From Acidobacteria bacterium Ga0077522 (lineage in GTDB: Bacteria > Acidobacteriota > Vicinamibacteria > Vicinamibacterales > Vicinamibacteraceae), in contig LNDN01000018.1 of assembly GCA_001464065.1 (NCBI GenBank), positions 1 through 47,357 of the forward strand: a stretch of 47,357 bases of DNA, in the 5' to 3' direction. The notes beneath the pieces are model-generated. The model saw only the letters and a program-made list of their open reading frames with translations. It ran no database searches and was not told the DNA's origin. The first letter of the stretch is position 1. The number at the start of each line of letters is the position of its first letter. The position numbers and the translations under genes were made by a program. Shown here one piece after another: positions 8,809-16,738 of the stretch.

Positions 8809-10023
8809 ATGTCCCGCCTCCTCCGGCTGGCCGCATGGGCGGCGATGGCAGCGGCCGCGCCCTGCGCGGCCCAGGAGGCCTCCCCGCCCCGGGGCAACTG
8901 GTTCCAGGAGCACGTGCGCCTGGCCGGCGAGGCCAGCGCCTCGATGTCGACCACGGAGGCCTCGGCCGAGGGCTGGTTCAACTACTCGGACTACGAGAAC
9001 AGCACCGTACGGTCGCTGCGGCTGTCACTCGTGGGCGAGGTGACCTTCTCGGAACGGGTGGCGCTGATCACGGAGGTGCGGACGCTGCAGTTCGAGCGGC
9101 CCGAGGCGTACGCGCTCTACGTGCGCATTCGCCCCTGGGTGTCGCAGGCACTCGACATCCATGTCGGCCGGATTCCGCCGACGTTCGGGTCGTTCCCGCG
9201 CCGCCTCTATGTGGCCGACAACCCGCTGATCGGCATGCCGCTGGCCTTCCAGTACCTCACCTCCAATCGGGCCGATGCCGTGCCGGCGTCGGCCGACGAG
9301 CTCGTGAGCATGCGGGCCCGCGGCTGGCGCAGTGACTTCTCGATCGGCAACCCGACCGAGGGCCCGGGCCTGCCGATCGCCAACGCGCTGCGGTGGGACA
9401 GCGGACTCCAGGTCCGCTGGCAGCGCGACCCCGTCACCGTGTACGGCGCCGTCACCCAGGGCACGATCGGCGACCCGCGGCTGTCCGACGACAACGGCGG
9501 CCCCCAGCTGTCGGCCCGCGTCGTGGTGGCCCCACACCCGATCATCGCCCTGGGCGCGTCGGTCGCGGACGGTCCGTACCTCGCGCGTGGGCTGGCCGCG
9601 CAGCTTCCCGGGCCCGGCGGGCTCAGGAGCCACCGGCAGCAGGCCGTCGGTGGTGACGTCGAGCTGTCGCGCGACCGCTGGCTGGTGCGGGGGGAGGTCG
9701 TCTGGAATCGGTGGAACCAGCCGGCGTTCGACGGCGCCTCCGTGCGGGACCTCGATGCGCTCGGGTCGATGCTGGAGATGAAGTACCGGCTCTGGCCGGG
9801 CCTGTACGCGGCCGGTCGGGTCGAGCGTCTCGGGTTCTCCGACGTGGCGACCACCCTCGGCCCGCGCGCCTGGGATGCGCCGGTGACGCGCCTCGAGGTC
9901 GGCGGCGGGTGGGCCGTGCGGCGTCAGCTGCTGCTGAAGGCCGTGTGGCAGCGCAATCGCCGCGAGGGCGGGCGCGTGCGCGCCAGCGACCTGGGCGCCG
10001 TGCAGGTGGTGACATGGTTCTGA
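8809..10023 (+). CDS. Outer-membrane beta-barrel (porin-like) protein
   Basis: 404 residues with an N-terminal signal peptide of about 21 residues (hydrophobic core LAAWAAMAAAAPCAAQ). The mature part alternates polar and hydrophobic residues in amphipathic strands and ends in VQVVTWF. A terminal aromatic residue is the usual signal for the barrel-assembly machinery. Glycine, tyrosine, arginine and tryptophan are common, as in porins. No specific family is recognised and the cargo is unknown. It overlaps the cupredoxin gene by 10 bp, so the two are co-translated, which suggests a link to copper or to periplasmic redox proteins. Confidence 0.75.
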   Translation: MSRLLRLAAWAAMAAAAPCAAQEASPPRGNWFQEHVRLAGEASASMSTTEASAEGWFNYSDYENSTVRSLRLSLVGEVTFSERVALITEVRTLQFERPEAYALYVRIRPWVSQALDIHVGRIPPTFGSFPRRLYVADNPLIGMPLAFQYLTSNRADAVPASADELVSMRARGWRSDFSIGNPTEGPGLPIANALRWDSGLQVRWQRDPVTVYGAVTQGTIGDPRLSDDNGGPQLSARVVVAPHPIIALGASVADGPYLARGLAAQLPGPGGLRSHRQQAVGGDVELSRDRWLVRGEVVWNRWNQPAFDGASVRDLDALGSMLEMKYRLWPGLYAAGRVERLGFSDVATTLGPRAWDAPVTRLEVGGGWAVRRQLLLKAVWQRNRREGGRVRASDLGAVQVVTWF

Positions 10024-10685
10024 CGAGGCGTGTGGCCATCGCCGCGCTCGTGACGACCACGCTGGTGGCGGTGATGCAGGCGCCGGCGGGAACACAGGGG
10101 GCCACGGGGACCCTCCGTGGTCGCTTCGCCCTGCCGGCAGCCACCGGCCACGACCATCGTCCCGCACTGATCGAGCCTCGCGTCGCGCCGCGGCCCCGCC
10201 AGACGCGCGTCGGCGTGGTCTACCTGGAGGTCGCCCCGTCGGAGGCCTTCGAGCAGCCGGTGGCGGCGCGCCAGCGGATGGATCAGCGCAACGAGACGTT
10301 CGTGCCGCACGTGCTGGCCATCCGGACCGGGACGACCGTCGACTTTCCCAACAGCGACCGCATCTACCACAACGTGTTCTCGCTGTCGCCGACGCGGAAG
10401 TTCGATCTCGGGCGCTACGCCGTCGGCCGCTCCAAGGCGGTGCGGTTCGATCGCCCCGGCGTCGTGCGCGTGTTCTGCGACATCCACTCGCACATGAGCG
10501 CGTTCATCCTGGTGTTCTCGCACCGCTACTTCGCCGTGACGCAACCCGATGGCACCTTCCAGCTGCCGCCGGTGCCCACCGGCACGTACATGCTCGCCGG
10601 CTGGTACGAGGGCGAGGTGCGTGCCAATCGCCAGGTCGTGGTGCGCAGCGGCGAGACCACCGTCGCCGACCTGCCGGTGCCGTGA
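10014..10685 (+). CDS. Secreted cupredoxin (plastocyanin-like) with a C-terminal carboxypeptidase-regulatory-like fold
   Basis: 223 residues with a signal peptide (RRVAIAALVTTTLVAVMQAPA). The centre is a type-1 copper domain: His119 in RIYHNVFSLS, then Cys155, His158/His160 and Met161 in FCDIHSHM. This order of ligands (His, Cys, His, Met) matches plastocyanin-like domains annotated as methylamine-utilisation-like proteins. The last 55 residues (TQPDGTFQLPPVPTGTYML) look like a carboxypeptidase-regulatory beta-sandwich. Probable periplasmic electron carrier or copper binder. It is coupled to the porin gene upstream and to the kinase gene downstream (stop and start overlap by one base). Confidence 0.85.
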   Translation: MVLTRRVAIAALVTTTLVAVMQAPAGTQGATGTLRGRFALPAATGHDHRPALIEPRVAPRPRQTRVGVVYLEVAPSEAFEQPVAARQRMDQRNETFVPHVLAIRTGTTVDFPNSDRIYHNVFSLSPTRKFDLGRYAVGRSKAVRFDRPGVVRVFCDIHSHMSAFILVFSHRYFAVTQPDGTFQLPPVPTGTYMLAGWYEGEVRANRQVVVRSGETTVADLPVP

Positions 10686-12389
10686 TGCGCGCGCTCGGCT
10701 CCCTCTCCAATCGCCTCTTCCTCATCTGCGTGCTGCTGTCGACGGCGTCCATCGGCGGCGCGATGCTGTTCGTCAGCGCACGCCTCACCCGTGAGCACGA
10801 CCGGGCCATGGCCGTCAGGCTCGACGAGACGATCGCGCTGGTCGAACGCCAGCGCCGCCTGCTGCTCGAGACCTCGACGCGGCTCGCCCGGCTGGTGGCC
10901 GACCTGCCCAAGCTGAAGGCCGCGCTCACCACCGACGCGGCCACCCTGGCGCCCATCGTGGCCAGCTATCGCGAGGAGATCGGGGCCGACCTCCTCATCG
11001 TCAGCGACGCCGACGGGGCTCCGGTGTTCCGGGCCGGCGACGTGCGCGGCGACGTCGCCACCCGTCGCCTGCGCATCGACCGCTCGATGGTCGGTGCGGC
11101 GACGCTGGCCACGATGGCGCATCCCCGAGGGCTGCTGCATCTCGTGAGCGTGCCGATCGTCATCGGCTTCGATCCGGCCGAGCAGCTCGGCCTGCTCAGC
11201 GTCGGCATGCTGTTCGACGACGAGCAGGCGCGCGCCCTGCGGGCCTCGACCGGCAGCGAGCTGGCCTTCGCGCTGGGCGACCACGTACTGGCCTCGTCGA
11301 TCGGACCGGCGGTCGCGCCCGTGCTGGCGCCCGCGCTCGCGGCCGGTCAGGCCGGCACGCTGCTGGTGGCGGATCGACGCTACGCCTGGCATCGTCACGC
11401 CCTGCATCCGATGCCAGGGGAGGTGCAGGGCGATGGCGGCGAACCTCGACTGGTGGTGATGCACTCGACCGAGGACGCCGAAGCCACTCTGCGCAGCGTG
11501 CGCCTCGCGCTGGCCGTCATCGCATTGCTGACGGCGCTGGCGGCCAGCGTGGCCAGCTACGCCGTGGCGCGCACCATCACGCGCCCGCTCTCGGCACTCA
11601 CGGCCTCCATGCGCGAGATGGCGCAGACCGGCATCCTCTCGCCGCCGCCACCTCGCACGCGCACCCATGCGTGGGACGACGAGGATGTCCGCCTGCTGGC
11701 GGGGACCTTCGACGCCATGACCGGGGCCATCGGTCGGTTCCAGCAGCAGGCCTCGGAGCGCGATCGCCTGACGGCCCTGGGACGCCTGTCGACGGTGATC
11801 GCGCACGAGATCCGCAATCCCCTGATGATCGTGCGACCGATGCGGCCGCCGACATCGAGGAGCAGGTCCAGCGCCTGGATCGGGTCGTCAACGACGTGCT
11901 CGACTTCGCACGGCCCGTGCACCTCGAGGTCGCGCCAGCCTCGCTGCACGCGATTTGCCGGGAGGCCGTCGCCGCCTGCCTCGCGGCCGAGACCGACCCG
12001 CCGGTCACGCTCTACCTCGAGGACGCGGCCGATGCCGTGCGAACGGACGCCGATCGGCTCCGGGCCGTCCTGGTCAACCTGATCGCCAACGCGCGCGAAG
12101 CCGTCCGCGCGGCGGGCCGCCTGCCCGACGACAGTGTGGTCACCGTCGGCACGCGACGTGCATCGACGGTGGTCATGATCGAGATTGTCGACACCGGCAC
12201 CGGCATGGAACCCGCCGTGGCCAGTCAGGTGTTCGAGCCCTACTTCACCACCCGACGCACCGGGACCGGACTCGGGCTCGCCATCGCGCGCAACATCATC
12301 GAGGGGCTCGGCGGCACCATCGCGCTCACGAGCACCCCCGGTCATGGCACGAGCGTGTCCATCACCCTGCCGCAAGGGGACACGCACCC

Positions 12390-12393
<4 letters not shown>
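10685..12393 (+). pseudogene. Sensor histidine kinase with a frameshift in the dimerisation helix hairpin
   Basis: Two overlapping frames together encode one kinase. The first frame, from ATG 10685 (or GTG 10682), gives a membrane helix, a periplasmic sensor of about 240 residues, a second helix (LAVIALLTALAASVASYAVA), HAMP, and the phospho-acceptor box VIAHEIRNPLMIV ending near 11833. After that this frame turns into arginine-rich nonsense. The next frame continues with DAAADIEEQVQRLDRVVNDVLDFARP, the N-box NLIANAREA and the G boxes DTGTGM and GTGLGL, ending at 12393. Spacing between the H-box and FARP is about 12-18 residues shorter than usual, so a deletion of 3n+1 bases seems likelier than a single missing base. 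Sequencing or assembly error cannot be excluded. It overlaps the response regulator by ATGA. Confidence 0.85.
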
Positions 12394-13751
<1,358 letters not shown>

Positions 13752-13755
13752 ATGC

Positions 13756-13851
13756 CGCAATGCCGCAATGCCGAAATGCCGCAATGCCGACATGCGGGCA
13801 TGCGGAAGGGCAGAAGGGCGAAGGGCGAAGGGTGAAGGGTGAAAGGGAAGT
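13756..13851. repeat. Octamer micro-repeat island
   Basis: Tandem variants of GCCGCAAT/GCCGAAAT, then AAGGGCGA/AAGGGTGA words, immediately after the regulator gene. It also contains a small CATGC/GCATG hairpin. It separates the regulator gene from the sigma54 control region. Confidence 0.8.
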
Positions 13852-13853
13852 GT

Positions 13854-13868
13854 TTACTTAACTCGTAA
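13854..13868 (+). promoter_or_regulatory. Candidate activator-binding dyad TTAC-N7-GTAA
   Basis: TTAC (13854-13857) and GTAA (13865-13868) form an inverted repeat with a 7-base spacer in an AT-rich pocket. Its centre is about 105 bp before the predicted start of the sigma54 transcript, the usual distance for an NtrC-type enhancer site. The same dyad occurs twice at 15922-15956. Confidence 0.55.
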
Positions 13869-13940
13869 GTGCTTTCGGATCTCGTGCGTCGCCTCAGGCC
13901 TGTGGCGGCCAGATTCCTTTGGAATACCGACACGTCGCGC

Positions 13941-13954
13941 GGCATGCGCCTTGC
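13941..13954 (+). promoter_or_regulatory. Sigma54 (-24/-12) promoter core
   Basis: GGCATG-N4-TTGC with GG and GC exactly 10 bases apart, matching the sigma54 consensus (TGGCAC-N5-TTGC). Predicted start near 13966, then a perfect ribosome-binding site AAGGAGGG (13968-13975) and the GTG of the CuA gene at 13982. The gene directly upstream encodes a sigma54 activator. Confidence 0.7.
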
Positions 13955-13981
13955 CTTGGTTCATGGCAAGGAGGGACGTCC

Positions 13982-14353
13982 GTGTTCCAGAGAGAGTGGC
14001 GCCGCAGTGCGCTGGCCTTGCCGTTCGTGGCACTTGGCCTCGTCGTGTCCTTGGCGGCGCAGCAGGCGCCGCGCGTGATCGAGGTCAAGGCCAAGAAGTA
14101 CGACTTCGACCCGGCAACCATCGAGGTGCAGCAGGGCGAGCGCGTGGTCCTCCGCGTGACGTCGACCGACCGCCTGCACGGCATCGGCATCCGGAAGTTC
14201 GGCGTGAAGGCGGAGGTGCCGAAAGGGGCGACCGTCGACGTGGAGTTCGTCGCCTCGACCGCCGGCACCTACAAGGTGCTCTGCACCGAGGAATGCGGCA
14301 AGGGGCACGACGACATGGTCGGCACCCTGATCGTGAAGGCGGTGGCGCCATGA
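13982..14353 (+). CDS. Small secreted CuA-domain (cytochrome oxidase subunit II-like) cupredoxin
   Basis: 123 residues starting at GTG 13982, chosen because AAGGAGGG sits 6-7 bases upstream. A hydrophobic N-terminus (ALALPFVALGLVVSLAAQQ) acts as signal peptide or anchor. The rest is one cupredoxin domain with the binuclear CuA ligand set: His66 (RLHGIGI), then Cys101, Glu103/Glu104, Cys105, His109 and Met112 in CTEECGKGHDDM. True COX2 has two transmembrane helices before this domain; here they are absent, so this is a stand-alone CuA carrier rather than an oxidase subunit. It is first in an operon with a cytochrome c lipoprotein and a barrel protein, under a predicted sigma54 promoter. Confidence 0.85.
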   Translation: MFQREWRRSALALPFVALGLVVSLAAQQAPRVIEVKAKKYDFDPATIEVQQGERVVLRVTSTDRLHGIGIRKFGVKAEVPKGATVDVEFVASTAGTYKVLCTEECGKGHDDMVGTLIVKAVAP

Positions 14354-14811
14354 GGCGGCGCGTCCTTCGTGCTGCGACGCTCATCGCGAGCGTCAGTCTG
14401 CTCGCCTTCGCCTCCGGGTGCGACGAGAAGCTGTCCGACATCGCTGGCCCGTCGCCCGGCCTGACGCCGACCTACTCGAGCATCGCCCAGAACATCTTCG
14501 CGAGCACCGACGGCTCGGGCCGCACGGCCTGCACGCAGTGCCACACCAATCAGGGGCGCGTGCCTGCGGCCAACCTCAATCTCCTGCCCGAGGCTGGCTA
14601 TGCCCAACTGGTCGGTGTGGCCAGCGTGCAGAAGCCGGGCGCCATTCGGGTCATCCCCGGCGACGCCGACGGCAGCTACCTGGTGCACAAGCTCGACGGG
14701 CGCGCCGACATCGTCGGCCAGCGCATGCCCCGCAACGCCGGCCCGTTCCTCACCGAGGGCCAGATGCTCATCATCCGCCGCTGGATCGACCAGGGCGCGC
14801 AGAACAACTGA
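14350..14811 (+). CDS. Cytochrome c-like lipoprotein (single haem)
   Basis: 153 residues. Signal peptide with lipobox LAFASGC, so Cys24 is the predicted lipid-modified residue. One haem-binding motif C61-T-Q-C64-H65. Towards the C-terminus, QRMPRNAGPFLTEGQMLIIRRWIDQGA resembles the tail of Planctomycete-type cytochrome domains, with a Met as possible distal ligand. It overlaps the CuA gene by 4 bp (ATGA). Probably passes electrons to or from the CuA protein in the periplasm. Confidence 0.85.
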   Translation: MRRRVLRAATLIASVSLLAFASGCDEKLSDIAGPSPGLTPTYSSIAQNIFASTDGSGRTACTQCHTNQGRVPAANLNLLPEAGYAQLVGVASVQKPGAIRVIPGDADGSYLVHKLDGRADIVGQRMPRNAGPFLTEGQMLIIRRWIDQGAQNN

Positions 14812-14818
14812 GGCGCAC

Positions 14819-15757
14819 ATGAAGAACACCATCCTTGCCACGGCGCTGACGTTGATCGCCCTGGGCGCGCTGCCTGCCTCGGCGCAGGATCGCGTCGAGC
14901 CCGCACCCACGCCCAAAGCTCCCGCAGAGACGGATCCGGCCACGCCGGCCCCCGCACCCGCGGCGCCTGCCCCTGCCGGCGCGCCGGCCGACGATGCGGC
15001 GGCCGTCCAGGACGACGAGGACGACCCGGACCTCGACGTCAACCTGTCACAGCCCGATTACACGATCGTCAACCTGCCGACGACGCTGCGCATGCCGAAG
15101 GGCAAGTTCGCGATGCGGGTCACGCACCGCTTCGGGCGCCCGCTCGGCGACGGCGACTTCGGCGATCTGGCGTCGGACCTGTTCGGCCTCGACGCCGGCG
15201 GCCTCATCGGTCTCGAGTTCCGCTATGGCCTTCTGACGGGCACGCAGGTCGGGGTGCTTCGCACGAGCGATCGCACGGTGCAGTTCTTCGCGCAGCAGCA
15301 ACTCGTGGCGCAGGGGGGCTCCCCGGTGGGGCTCGCCCTCAACCTCACGGCCGACGGCACCAACAACTTCCAGGACAGCTATTCGCCGGGCATCGGTCTG
15401 ATCATCTCGCGCGAGATCGGCAAGCGCGGGGCGCTGTATGTCGAGCCGACGTGGGTCAACAACACCAACGTGTTGCCAGGCGAGCTCGTCGACGACAACG
15501 ACTCGTTGCTGATTGGTCTCGGAGCCCGTCTGCGGGTGACGCGCCGCATGTATCTCGTGGCGGAGGCAGCACCGCGGGTCAACGGCTTCGAGCCCGGATC
15601 GACGGCGGCCAGCGTCGGCGTCGAAATGCGAGCCGGTGGGCACGGCTTCCAGCTCAACGTCTCGCGCGGCCTCGGCACGACGATGGCGCAGGTGGCGCGC
15701 GGCGGATCGAGCGACGACTGGTTCATCGGGTTCAACATCGCGCGCAAGTTCTGGTAG
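14819..15757 (+). CDS. DUF5777-like outer-membrane beta-barrel protein
   Basis: 312 residues. Signal peptide ending near ASAQD, then an Ala/Pro-rich linker (about residues 25-65) with an acidic patch (DDEDDPDLD), then a barrel-like domain. The start of that domain, TTLRMPKGKFAMRVTHRFGRP, and the GLDAGGLIGLEFRYGL segment resemble the DUF5777 family. The protein ends in FNIARKFW, with the C-terminal aromatic residue expected of outer-membrane barrels. It lies 7 bp after the cytochrome gene. Function unknown; the operon suggests an outer-membrane partner of a copper/haem electron chain. Confidence 0.8.
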   Translation: MKNTILATALTLIALGALPASAQDRVEPAPTPKAPAETDPATPAPAPAAPAPAGAPADDAAAVQDDEDDPDLDVNLSQPDYTIVNLPTTLRMPKGKFAMRVTHRFGRPLGDGDFGDLASDLFGLDAGGLIGLEFRYGLLTGTQVGVLRTSDRTVQFFAQQQLVAQGGSPVGLALNLTADGTNNFQDSYSPGIGLIISREIGKRGALYVEPTWVNNTNVLPGELVDDNDSLLIGLGARLRVTRRMYLVAEAAPRVNGFEPGSTAASVGVEMRAGGHGFQLNVSRGLGTTMAQVARGGSSDDWFIGFNIARKFW

Positions 15758-15921
15758 CACGCAGGTTGGAGTCGGCGTGACGTGCGCGCGGGCGGCTGGG
15801 TGGGCGCCTGGCTCCGCACCGCGCCGCGCCGATTCCTTCAGCAGCCGGAAGGGTCGGGGTGTCCCCGCATCCTGGGCCTTCCGTGCTGCGTCTTCGTTGG
15901 CGACCCGTCGGCGGGGGCTCG

Positions 15922-15956
15922 TTTACGGGCCGCGTAAGCCGCTTACGTGAAGGGTA
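15922..15956 (+). promoter_or_regulatory. Doubled activator-binding dyad TTAC-N7-GTAA
   Basis: Two dyads, 15922-15936 and 15942-15956, with centres 20 bp apart (two helical turns, same DNA face). Both match the site at 13854-13868. The midpoint is about 96 bp before the predicted start of the next sigma54 promoter. They lie in a region that is otherwise only the gap between convergent genes. Confidence 0.6.
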
Positions 15957-16009
15957 AGGCTCTCGCGATCAGACGGCCGCCGACCCGCGCCAATGGCGCT
16001 GCCGCACAC

Positions 16010-16023
16010 GGCATGTCGTTTGC
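16010..16023 (+). promoter_or_regulatory. Second sigma54 (-24/-12) promoter core
   Basis: GGCATG-N4-TTGC, followed by T, identical in its ten fixed bases to the core at 13941. The predicted start is near 16035. There is no conventional gene downstream on this strand, only the 20-codon frame at 16056 and two hairpins. Confidence 0.65.
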
Positions 16024-16055
16024 TATGGAAAGAAGTGGTTCAAGGGGGCGGCGAG

Positions 16056-16118
16056 ATGGCCAATGGCGGTGGGTTGGGCAGCCGGCAGCCAAGCCGCAAC
16101 GCCGACTTCCTTGTGTAG
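16056..16118 (+). CDS. Orphan 20-residue peptide gene (or small RNA) under sigma54 control
   Basis: The ATG at 16056 has a ribosome-binding site AAGGGGG (16042-16048) 7 bases upstream and a TAG at 16116. The peptide starts MANGGGLGSR and ends NADFLV; it has no signal sequence and I recognise no family. The stop codon lies inside the first of two hairpins. The transcript from about 16035 would be roughly 120 nt, so it could equally be a regulatory RNA with a short frame. Promoter, doubled dyad, ribosome-binding site, frame and hairpin follow each other at normal distances, which is why I list it despite its size. Confidence 0.5.
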   Translation: MANGGGLGSRQPSRNADFLV

Positions 16119-16152
16119 GAAGCGGGAGGTGCCGGGGGTGTTCCCCGGCACC
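16106..16152. terminator. Two adjacent hairpins between convergent genes
   Basis: CTTCCT/AGGAAG with a 5-base loop (16106-16122), then a perfect 10-bp stem GGTGCCGGGG/CCCCGGCACC with a 5-base loop (16128-16152). No long T tract follows, only CTCTTGCCT. It can serve the small sigma54 transcript on plus and grpE on minus. Confidence 0.65.
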
Positions 16153-16160
16153 CTCTTGCC

Positions 16161-16738
16161 TCAGCCCTGCGTATCGCTGGCGACGGCGACCGTCGCGGGG
16201 CGCAGGATGTCGTCGCCAATCAGATAGCCGGGCGCCGCCACACCGGCGACAATCCCCTCGCCGTACTGCTCGGTGATCGGGACCACGGCCACGGCTTCGT
16301 GCTGCTCGGGGTCGAACGGCTCGCCGAGCGGCTCGATGCGGCTGATGCCATACCCCGCGAACTTGTGCAGGAACTGCTGGCGTACCAGCTCGACGCCCTG
16401 CACCAGCGGGTCGGCGCTGCCGCTGGCGCGCGCCGCCGTCAGCGCGCGGTCGAGGTTGTCCACCACCTCCAGCAGATCGGCGAACACCGACCGCCGCGAG
16501 AGCTCGGCGTCGCGGCTCGCTTCCTTGCGCACGCGGGCACGCATCGCCTCGAACTCCCGCTGCGCCTCGTGCACCACCGTGATGTACTCCTGCAGCTGCG
16601 CGTCCTTCTCGGCGAGCTGCTGCTCGAGTTCCTGGACGTAGGACGGCTTCTCGAAGACCGTCGGCTCCTCGGCGGCCGGCGTGTCTTCCGTTCGCGCCCA
16701 CCAGCGGCGATCGACGACCTTCACAGGCTCCTGGTCAC

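Follow-up and report, generated by a model that had tools for sequence, protein, structure and literature searches.

Introduction

Among NtrC-type regulators, ZraSR, GlrKR-GlmY and LuxO-Qrr govern envelope stress or sigma54-dependent small RNAs, and NtrC itself, at glnA and nifLA, acts on a -24/-12 promoter from sites located some 100 bp upstream. Here we describe a locus of comparable design in the order Vicinamibacterales, found in a 47,357-nucleotide stretch of the Acidobacteria bacterium Ga0077522 genome (contig LNDN01000018.1; hereafter the window). The locus comprises a histidine kinase gene, an NtrC-type response regulator gene and two units, each consisting of one or two TTAC-N7-GTAA dyads upstream of a sigma54-type core. 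Unit 1 precedes genes for a CuA protein, a cytochrome-like lipoprotein and a DUF5777 barrel, and unit 2 precedes a candidate small RNA. Comparison with related genomes lends good support to the regulon as genuine and of a type already known.

The nearest precedent is CbrA-CbrB/CrcZ of Pseudomonas and Azotobacter, which likewise joins a two-component NtrC-type regulator to a sigmaN-dependent small RNA gene downstream; in Pseudomonas, the sigmaN-dependent crcZ gene is found downstream of cbrAB and is activated by CbrB (PMC8871633). A first-pass annotation of the window, made from its letters alone, had known of no described system of this make-up, for which the CbrB/crcZ pair offers a precedent. 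Several differences set the present locus apart. The sensor carries a dCache_3 domain instead of the SLC5 and PAS domains of CbrA, and the regulator is predicted to drive exported copper and cytochrome-like genes as well. The candidate RNA has no known link to Hfq or Crc and matches no Rfam family: the window gave no match at gathering score, and positions 13750-16250 gave no relevant one at E values up to 1, the CrcZ family included. Compared with NtrC at glnA and nifLA, the dyad, the targets and the lineage are different, and helical phasing is seen here in evolution, from sequence alone. The regulator also falls below the curated cut-offs of the NCBIfam equivalogs for ZraR, GlrR, AtoC, NtrC and LuxO (25 of the 106 matching models were listed, all of them below).

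We did not find the regulon described in the literature searched, which was one open-licence library. The library yielded nothing on DUF5777, on Vicinamibacteria with sigma54 or on the dyad spellings. For Luteitalea with cupredoxin the paper listed concerns cable bacteria, and Acidobacteria with sigma54 returned, among the matches listed, no title on such a regulon. In term searches, PMC12316311 contained neither Acidobacteri nor cytochrome nor copper, and the text of PMC4641369 contained neither TTAC nor GTAA.

Results

Two dyad-plus-core units downstream of an NtrC-type regulator

The window contains three TTAC-N7-GTAA dyads, compared with 0.01 in dinucleotide shuffles, and two GGCATG-N4-TTGC cores, compared with 0.10. 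Exactly 72 bp separate the end of a dyad from the core in both units (Table 1). Both cores place GG at -24 and GC at -12, separated by 10 bp, an arrangement kept among relatives. The first-pass annotation had placed both cores correctly; its three dyads are likewise real, and only its range for the unit 2 pair, 15922-15956, was one base off. It had also recognized an NtrC-type activator with GAFTGA directly upstream of unit 1, in agreement with the Pfam domains of the regulator (Response_reg, Sigma54_activat, AAA lid and HTH_8) and with the motif in its translation. The protein accordingly has the receiver, sigma54 AAA+ and Fis-type helix-turn-helix parts of group I enhancer-binding proteins. 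The genome also carries rpoN, detected by its DNA-binding domain.

The core was picked post hoc, and its looser form, GGCA-N6-TTGC, is near chance (3 in the window for 1.37 expected); the core by itself therefore proves nothing and was rejected as evidence. Dyad abundance was rejected as well. The 5.44-Mb genome holds four dyads, three of them in the window, and the reversed control also occurs four times, so that the signal lies in clustering and in pairing with the core. The fourth genomic dyad (L063:1099-1113, contig C312) has no sigma54-type core nearby. Because the window by itself leaves room for luck, comparison with relatives has to decide.

Units recur across the order and track the regulator

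We scanned 162 genomes of the order for a composite pattern (dyad, 46-76 bp, GGCAY-N5-TTGC). The pattern is present in 46 genomes (68 matches listed), whereas the reversed pattern is present in none. Orthologues of the regulator, 57-92% identical, were identified at E <= 1e-130 in 78 of the 162 genomes; genomes lacking one reach about 49% identity at best in the protein search. Of the 78 genomes with the regulator 41 have units, as do 5 of the 84 that lack it (Fisher p 1.4e-11, with no correction for shared descent). In one family (f8) a single genome of 28 has the regulator, and the same genome alone has the unit. Within the genus, the window genome (G000) and two other members (G001 and G002) carry regulator and units, and two further members (G003 and G004) carry neither. 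This comparison, which the first-pass annotation had proposed as its check, supports its suggestions that one regulator may control both units and that the dyads near -100 of sigma54-type cores may serve an NtrC-type protein.

Across the phylum, 26 of 396 genomes match. The order accounts for 13 of them (of 42 genomes), the rest of the class for 3 (of 4) and the phylum outside the class for 10 (of 350), the last being at chance level (7 genomes with control matches). Two loci in the class outside the order repeat the arrangement, one with kinase, regulator, unit, CuA and DUF5777 genes (L148) and one with kinase, regulator, unit and CuA genes (L151). Units at L152 and L153 precede, by eye, a cupredoxin-like and a CHRD-like protein; three others (L147, L149 and L150) have no genes of the CuA, cytochrome or DUF5777 type downstream.

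Units follow the regulator gene and precede copper and electron-transfer genes

We then considered a relaxed unit (one dyad mismatch, one core mismatch, gap 35-125 bp) at 33 regulator loci, namely the window and 32 others. Such a unit lies within 900 bp after the regulator gene at 25 of the 33, compared with a mean of 0.04 and a maximum of 1 in 50 shuffles and with 1 of 33 on the other strand.

Genes of the CuA, cytochrome-like or DUF5777 type begin within 4 kb downstream on the same strand for 42 of 60 strict units, a non-random sample drawn from 74 sources that were picked for regulator or unit. The first target gene starts 9-229 bp past the core in 41 of the 42 and 573 bp past it at L051. 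Among the 18 units lacking these genes, three are the unit 2 set of the genus and fifteen stand before other genes or none clear. Pfam searches of 14 proteins downstream of these fifteen gave cupredoxin or Copper-bind matches at L052, L108, L111, L115 and L134 (several under the curated cut-off), YceI at L052, CHRD at L098 and GSDH at L117, and no family for the remainder. By eye, proteins at L112 and L114 resemble cupredoxin lipoproteins and one at L118 has a CxxCH motif. At L052:8736-9002 (G021), two divergent units with overlapping dyads lie between a YceI gene and a cupredoxin gene.

Gaps between dyad and core follow the helical repeat

Exact dyad-core pairs in the 74 sources have gaps of 42-44 bp (4 pairs), 50-55 (30), 57 and 59 (2), 61-66 (14), 71-75 (22), 81-85 (6), 93-94 (3), 102 (2) and 121 (1), and in none of them is the core oriented toward the dyad. 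The distances cluster at whole helical turns of DNA. At a period of 10.5 bp, 73 units from 41 genera give R = 0.70, and one unit per genus gives R = 0.66 (p 2e-8), part of these loci having been found with the 46-76 bp window. When only loci retrieved through the regulator are taken, their 26 units likewise give R = 0.70 (p 3e-6) and, at one per genus (n = 17), R = 0.63 (p 0.001), a value reached in 16 of 20,000 smoothed draws. In units with two exact dyads, the offset between their starts is 19 bp for 14 pairs and 20 bp for the other 4. This phasing fits DNA looping by an activator that would need to face the promoter. Dependence on the face of the helix has been reported for NtrC at nifLA (PMC7408454, citing Minchin 1989).

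Unit 2 precedes a candidate structured RNA

Unit 2 is kept in G001, where both dyads are exact, and in G002, where one dyad is exact and the other has one mismatch. From the start expected near 16035, the predicted RNA folds into a single long hairpin in each of the three genomes (z -3.5, -5.9 and -3.6 for G000, G001 and G002). Its tip of 28 nt is identical in the three, and 97.5% of stem cells are paired, compared with 22-51% (at most 50.6%) for slid versions. Three stem pairs are changed on both sides (RNAalifold counts two). A model of the RNA finds strong matches (6e-20 or better) in 3 of the 162 genomes, the same three that have unit 2, and no match was counted in G003 and G004, the genus members without the regulator. 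At E <= 0.05 the model reaches 9 genomes, including six with weak matches (1e-4 to 0.04); none of these was counted, and the best, in G006, is by eye the start of a coding gene. The hairpins that the first-pass annotation had reported here are borne out by folding, the first in all three genomes and the second in G000 and G001. As a search for RNA targets, antisense matches to the tip in the three genomes are no more numerous than for a reversed control.

Some features argue against an RNA. Covariation does not exceed that of shuffles (142/500), because there are only three sequences. The terminator scan did not flag the hairpin at 16122-16159, which has no sharp T tail, and G002 lacks this second hairpin.

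Alternatively, unit 2 could encode a small protein. The 20-codon frame that the first-pass annotation had read as an orphan gene exists at 16056-16118 in the window, with AAGGGGG before its ATG, and a frame common to all three genomes, starting with ATG, ATG and TTG, begins MAVGWAAGS (LAVGWAAGS in G002). The gene reading of the 20-codon frame nevertheless finds no support in relatives: its start is absent from G001 (AAG) and G002, and its stop is matched in neither. Moreover, the 28 nt show no silent changes while the flanks vary, and the bases flanking them preserve the hairpin. A small protein, from either frame, is unlikely. An exact 23-mer of the tip also occurs in Acidobacteriaceae KBS 83 (L137:1216-1238), by eye within a possible small frame and ahead of a gene that reads as a 4-hydroxyphenylpyruvate dioxygenase. 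In the RNA model this region scores 24 bits with many broken pairs, and it folds otherwise; the copy may reflect chance or a small frame, and close relatives of the window genome could be missing from the collection searched.

Unit 2 might also be a decayed operon promoter with the hairpin as a functionless remnant. No protein gene is common to the three genomes downstream: in G000 and G001 a convergent GrpE gene follows (assigned by Pfam, on the opposite strand), and in G002 a convergent minus-strand open reading frame. Against decay, the twin dyads, the core and the hairpin tip are kept in all three, apart from the single dyad mismatch in G002, as neighbouring sequence diverges. We regard decay as quite unlikely. 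Since the long hairpin is shared and the frame keeps neither start nor stop, unit 2 more likely yields a structured small RNA, for which it is a good candidate; as a prediction from comparative sequence, we consider it probable.

Does the adjacent regulator serve the dyads?

Several observations weigh against a single regulon under this regulator. The strict unit is absent from 37 of the 78 genomes with the regulator, and an adjacent relaxed unit is missing at 8 of the 33 loci. Four or five genomes have units and no regulator was found in them; in one of the five, G067, a fragment of the regulator lies at the end of a contig (L105). In most genomes the dyad on its own does not outnumber its control. 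In the window genome itself the kinase gene is split into frames 10682-12082 and 11671-12393: alignment with G001 and G002 places 43 missing nucleotides near 11833, just after the H-box, which breaks the frame. The break is either a true lesion or an assembly error, the genome being fragmented into 429 contigs. Regarding the eight loci without an adjacent unit, the dyad at L053 sits at a contig end, L060 and L062 are extra copies in G026, and in G057 (L037) and G058 (L050) a unit precedes CuA, cytochrome-like or DUF5777 genes on another contig.

The dyads could instead serve a paralogous activator or another dimeric protein, with the adjacent NtrC-type gene a mere neighbour. Many genomes have at least 28 regulator matches each, so that many paralogous activators might share the site; the genomes with units and no regulator found would also agree with this, as would those (G057, G058 and G071) in which units lie on contigs separate from it. 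Such a scenario leaves unaccounted for the tracking of this particular orthologue, the position of units after its gene and a phasing to the sigma54 core that suits an NtrC-type activator, and we judge it very unlikely. Chance motifs chosen by eye in GC-rich DNA, a reading that the frequencies of the core alone and of the dyad alone would have allowed, can be dismissed given the composite pattern (46 genomes to 0) and its fall to chance outside the class, as expected of a working control.

Other features of the locus

Table 1. Coordinates of the kinase-regulator pair, the two units and associated elements in the window.
Feature	Position	Strand	Evidence
Histidine kinase gene (dCache_3 sensor, HisKA, HATPase_c), interrupted	10682..12389	+	Pfam; alignment with G001, G002
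NtrC-type response regulator gene, proposed activator of both units	12390..13751	+	Pfam; orthologues in relatives
Unit 1 dyad TTAC-N7-GTAA, proposed regulator site	13854..13868	no strand	Motif search, relatives
Unit 1 sigma54-type core GGCATGCGCCTTGC	13941..13954	+	Motif search
Secreted CuA/cupredoxin protein	13982..14353	+	Cupredoxin_1, COX2 (Pfam)
Lipoprotein-like protein, one CxxCH heme motif by eye	14350..14811	+	Translation
DUF5777 outer-membrane beta-barrel protein	14819..15757	+	PF19089, E 4.5e-32
Conserved hairpin directly 3' of DUF5777 gene	15841..15889	+	z-scores, consensus fold
Unit 2 distal dyad, 72 bp from core, proposed regulator site	15923..15937	no strand	Motif search
Unit 2 proximal dyad, 52 bp from core, proposed regulator site	15943..15957	no strand	Motif search
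Unit 2 sigma54-type core GGCATGTCGTTTGC	16010..16023	+	Motif search
Candidate small RNA, ~125 nt	16035..16160	+	Fold, conservation in G000, G001, G002
Long hairpin of candidate RNA with invariant 28-nt tip	16041..16113	+	Fold, alignment
Terminator-like GC-rich hairpin, poor T tail	16122..16159	+	Fold; similar in G001, none in G002

The unit 1 transcript would be expected to start near 13966, as predicted from the usual -12 spacing. The CuA protein also matches the CuA domains of CoxB and NosZ, below the family cut-offs. Pfam gave no family for the CxxCH lipoprotein-like protein, which has a weak diheme cytochrome match (E 0.00094). The hairpin 3' of the DUF5777 gene has z-scores of -4.3, -5.8 and -7.8 in the three genomes, and its consensus fold keeps paired changes; in 49 sources searched it is strong only in these three genus members and not in the 46 others.

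Short direct repeats of the TGCCGCAA and GAAGGG types lie at 13752-13850, between the regulator gene and unit 1, and were not seen by eye in G001 and G002. Upstream of the kinase, at 8809-10685, are two genes, one encoding a barrel-like protein that Pfam assigns to no family and one encoding a secreted protein with, by eye, a copper-site-like motif. Both accompany the kinase-regulator pair in most regulator loci examined.

Discussion

Taken together, unit conservation, regulator tracking, target genes, helical phasing and the common RNA fold emerge from the comparison and are consistent with a kinase-regulator pair and two sigma54 promoters forming one regulon module. The kinase would phosphorylate the NtrC-type regulator upon an envelope signal. 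The regulator would then bind the dyads, which often come as pairs spaced 19-20 bp and lie about 100 bp upstream of the -24/-12 promoters, and activate sigma54 polymerase through DNA looping. The predicted output of unit 1 is the CuA protein, the cytochrome-like lipoprotein and the DUF5777 barrel; in other genomes the regulon may extend to plastocyanin-like lipoproteins and further exported proteins, YceI and CHRD among them. In one genus, unit 2 would yield a structured small RNA. Phosphorylation and DNA binding of the regulator, transcription from the two units and a possible role for the RNA are predictions of this model. As a whole, a two-component regulator driving both sigma54 units, small RNA included, appears highly probable to us. 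We see as evenly balanced the broader proposal that exported copper and electron-transfer proteins belong to an undescribed, class-wide sigma54 regulon in which the dyad-core distance has shifted by whole turns only and one genus has gained a new regulatory RNA family, with an invariant tip, as a second output.

The lineage is common in soils, and the work assigns a putative regulator, DNA site and target list to its CuA, cytochrome-like lipoprotein and DUF5777 gene set. The whole-turn spacing over some 40 genera may record, in naturally occurring sequences, how DNA loops at sigma54 promoters and could serve to test the geometry of such loops. Should the RNA prove real, it would represent a new family of small RNAs, its activation system already in hand.

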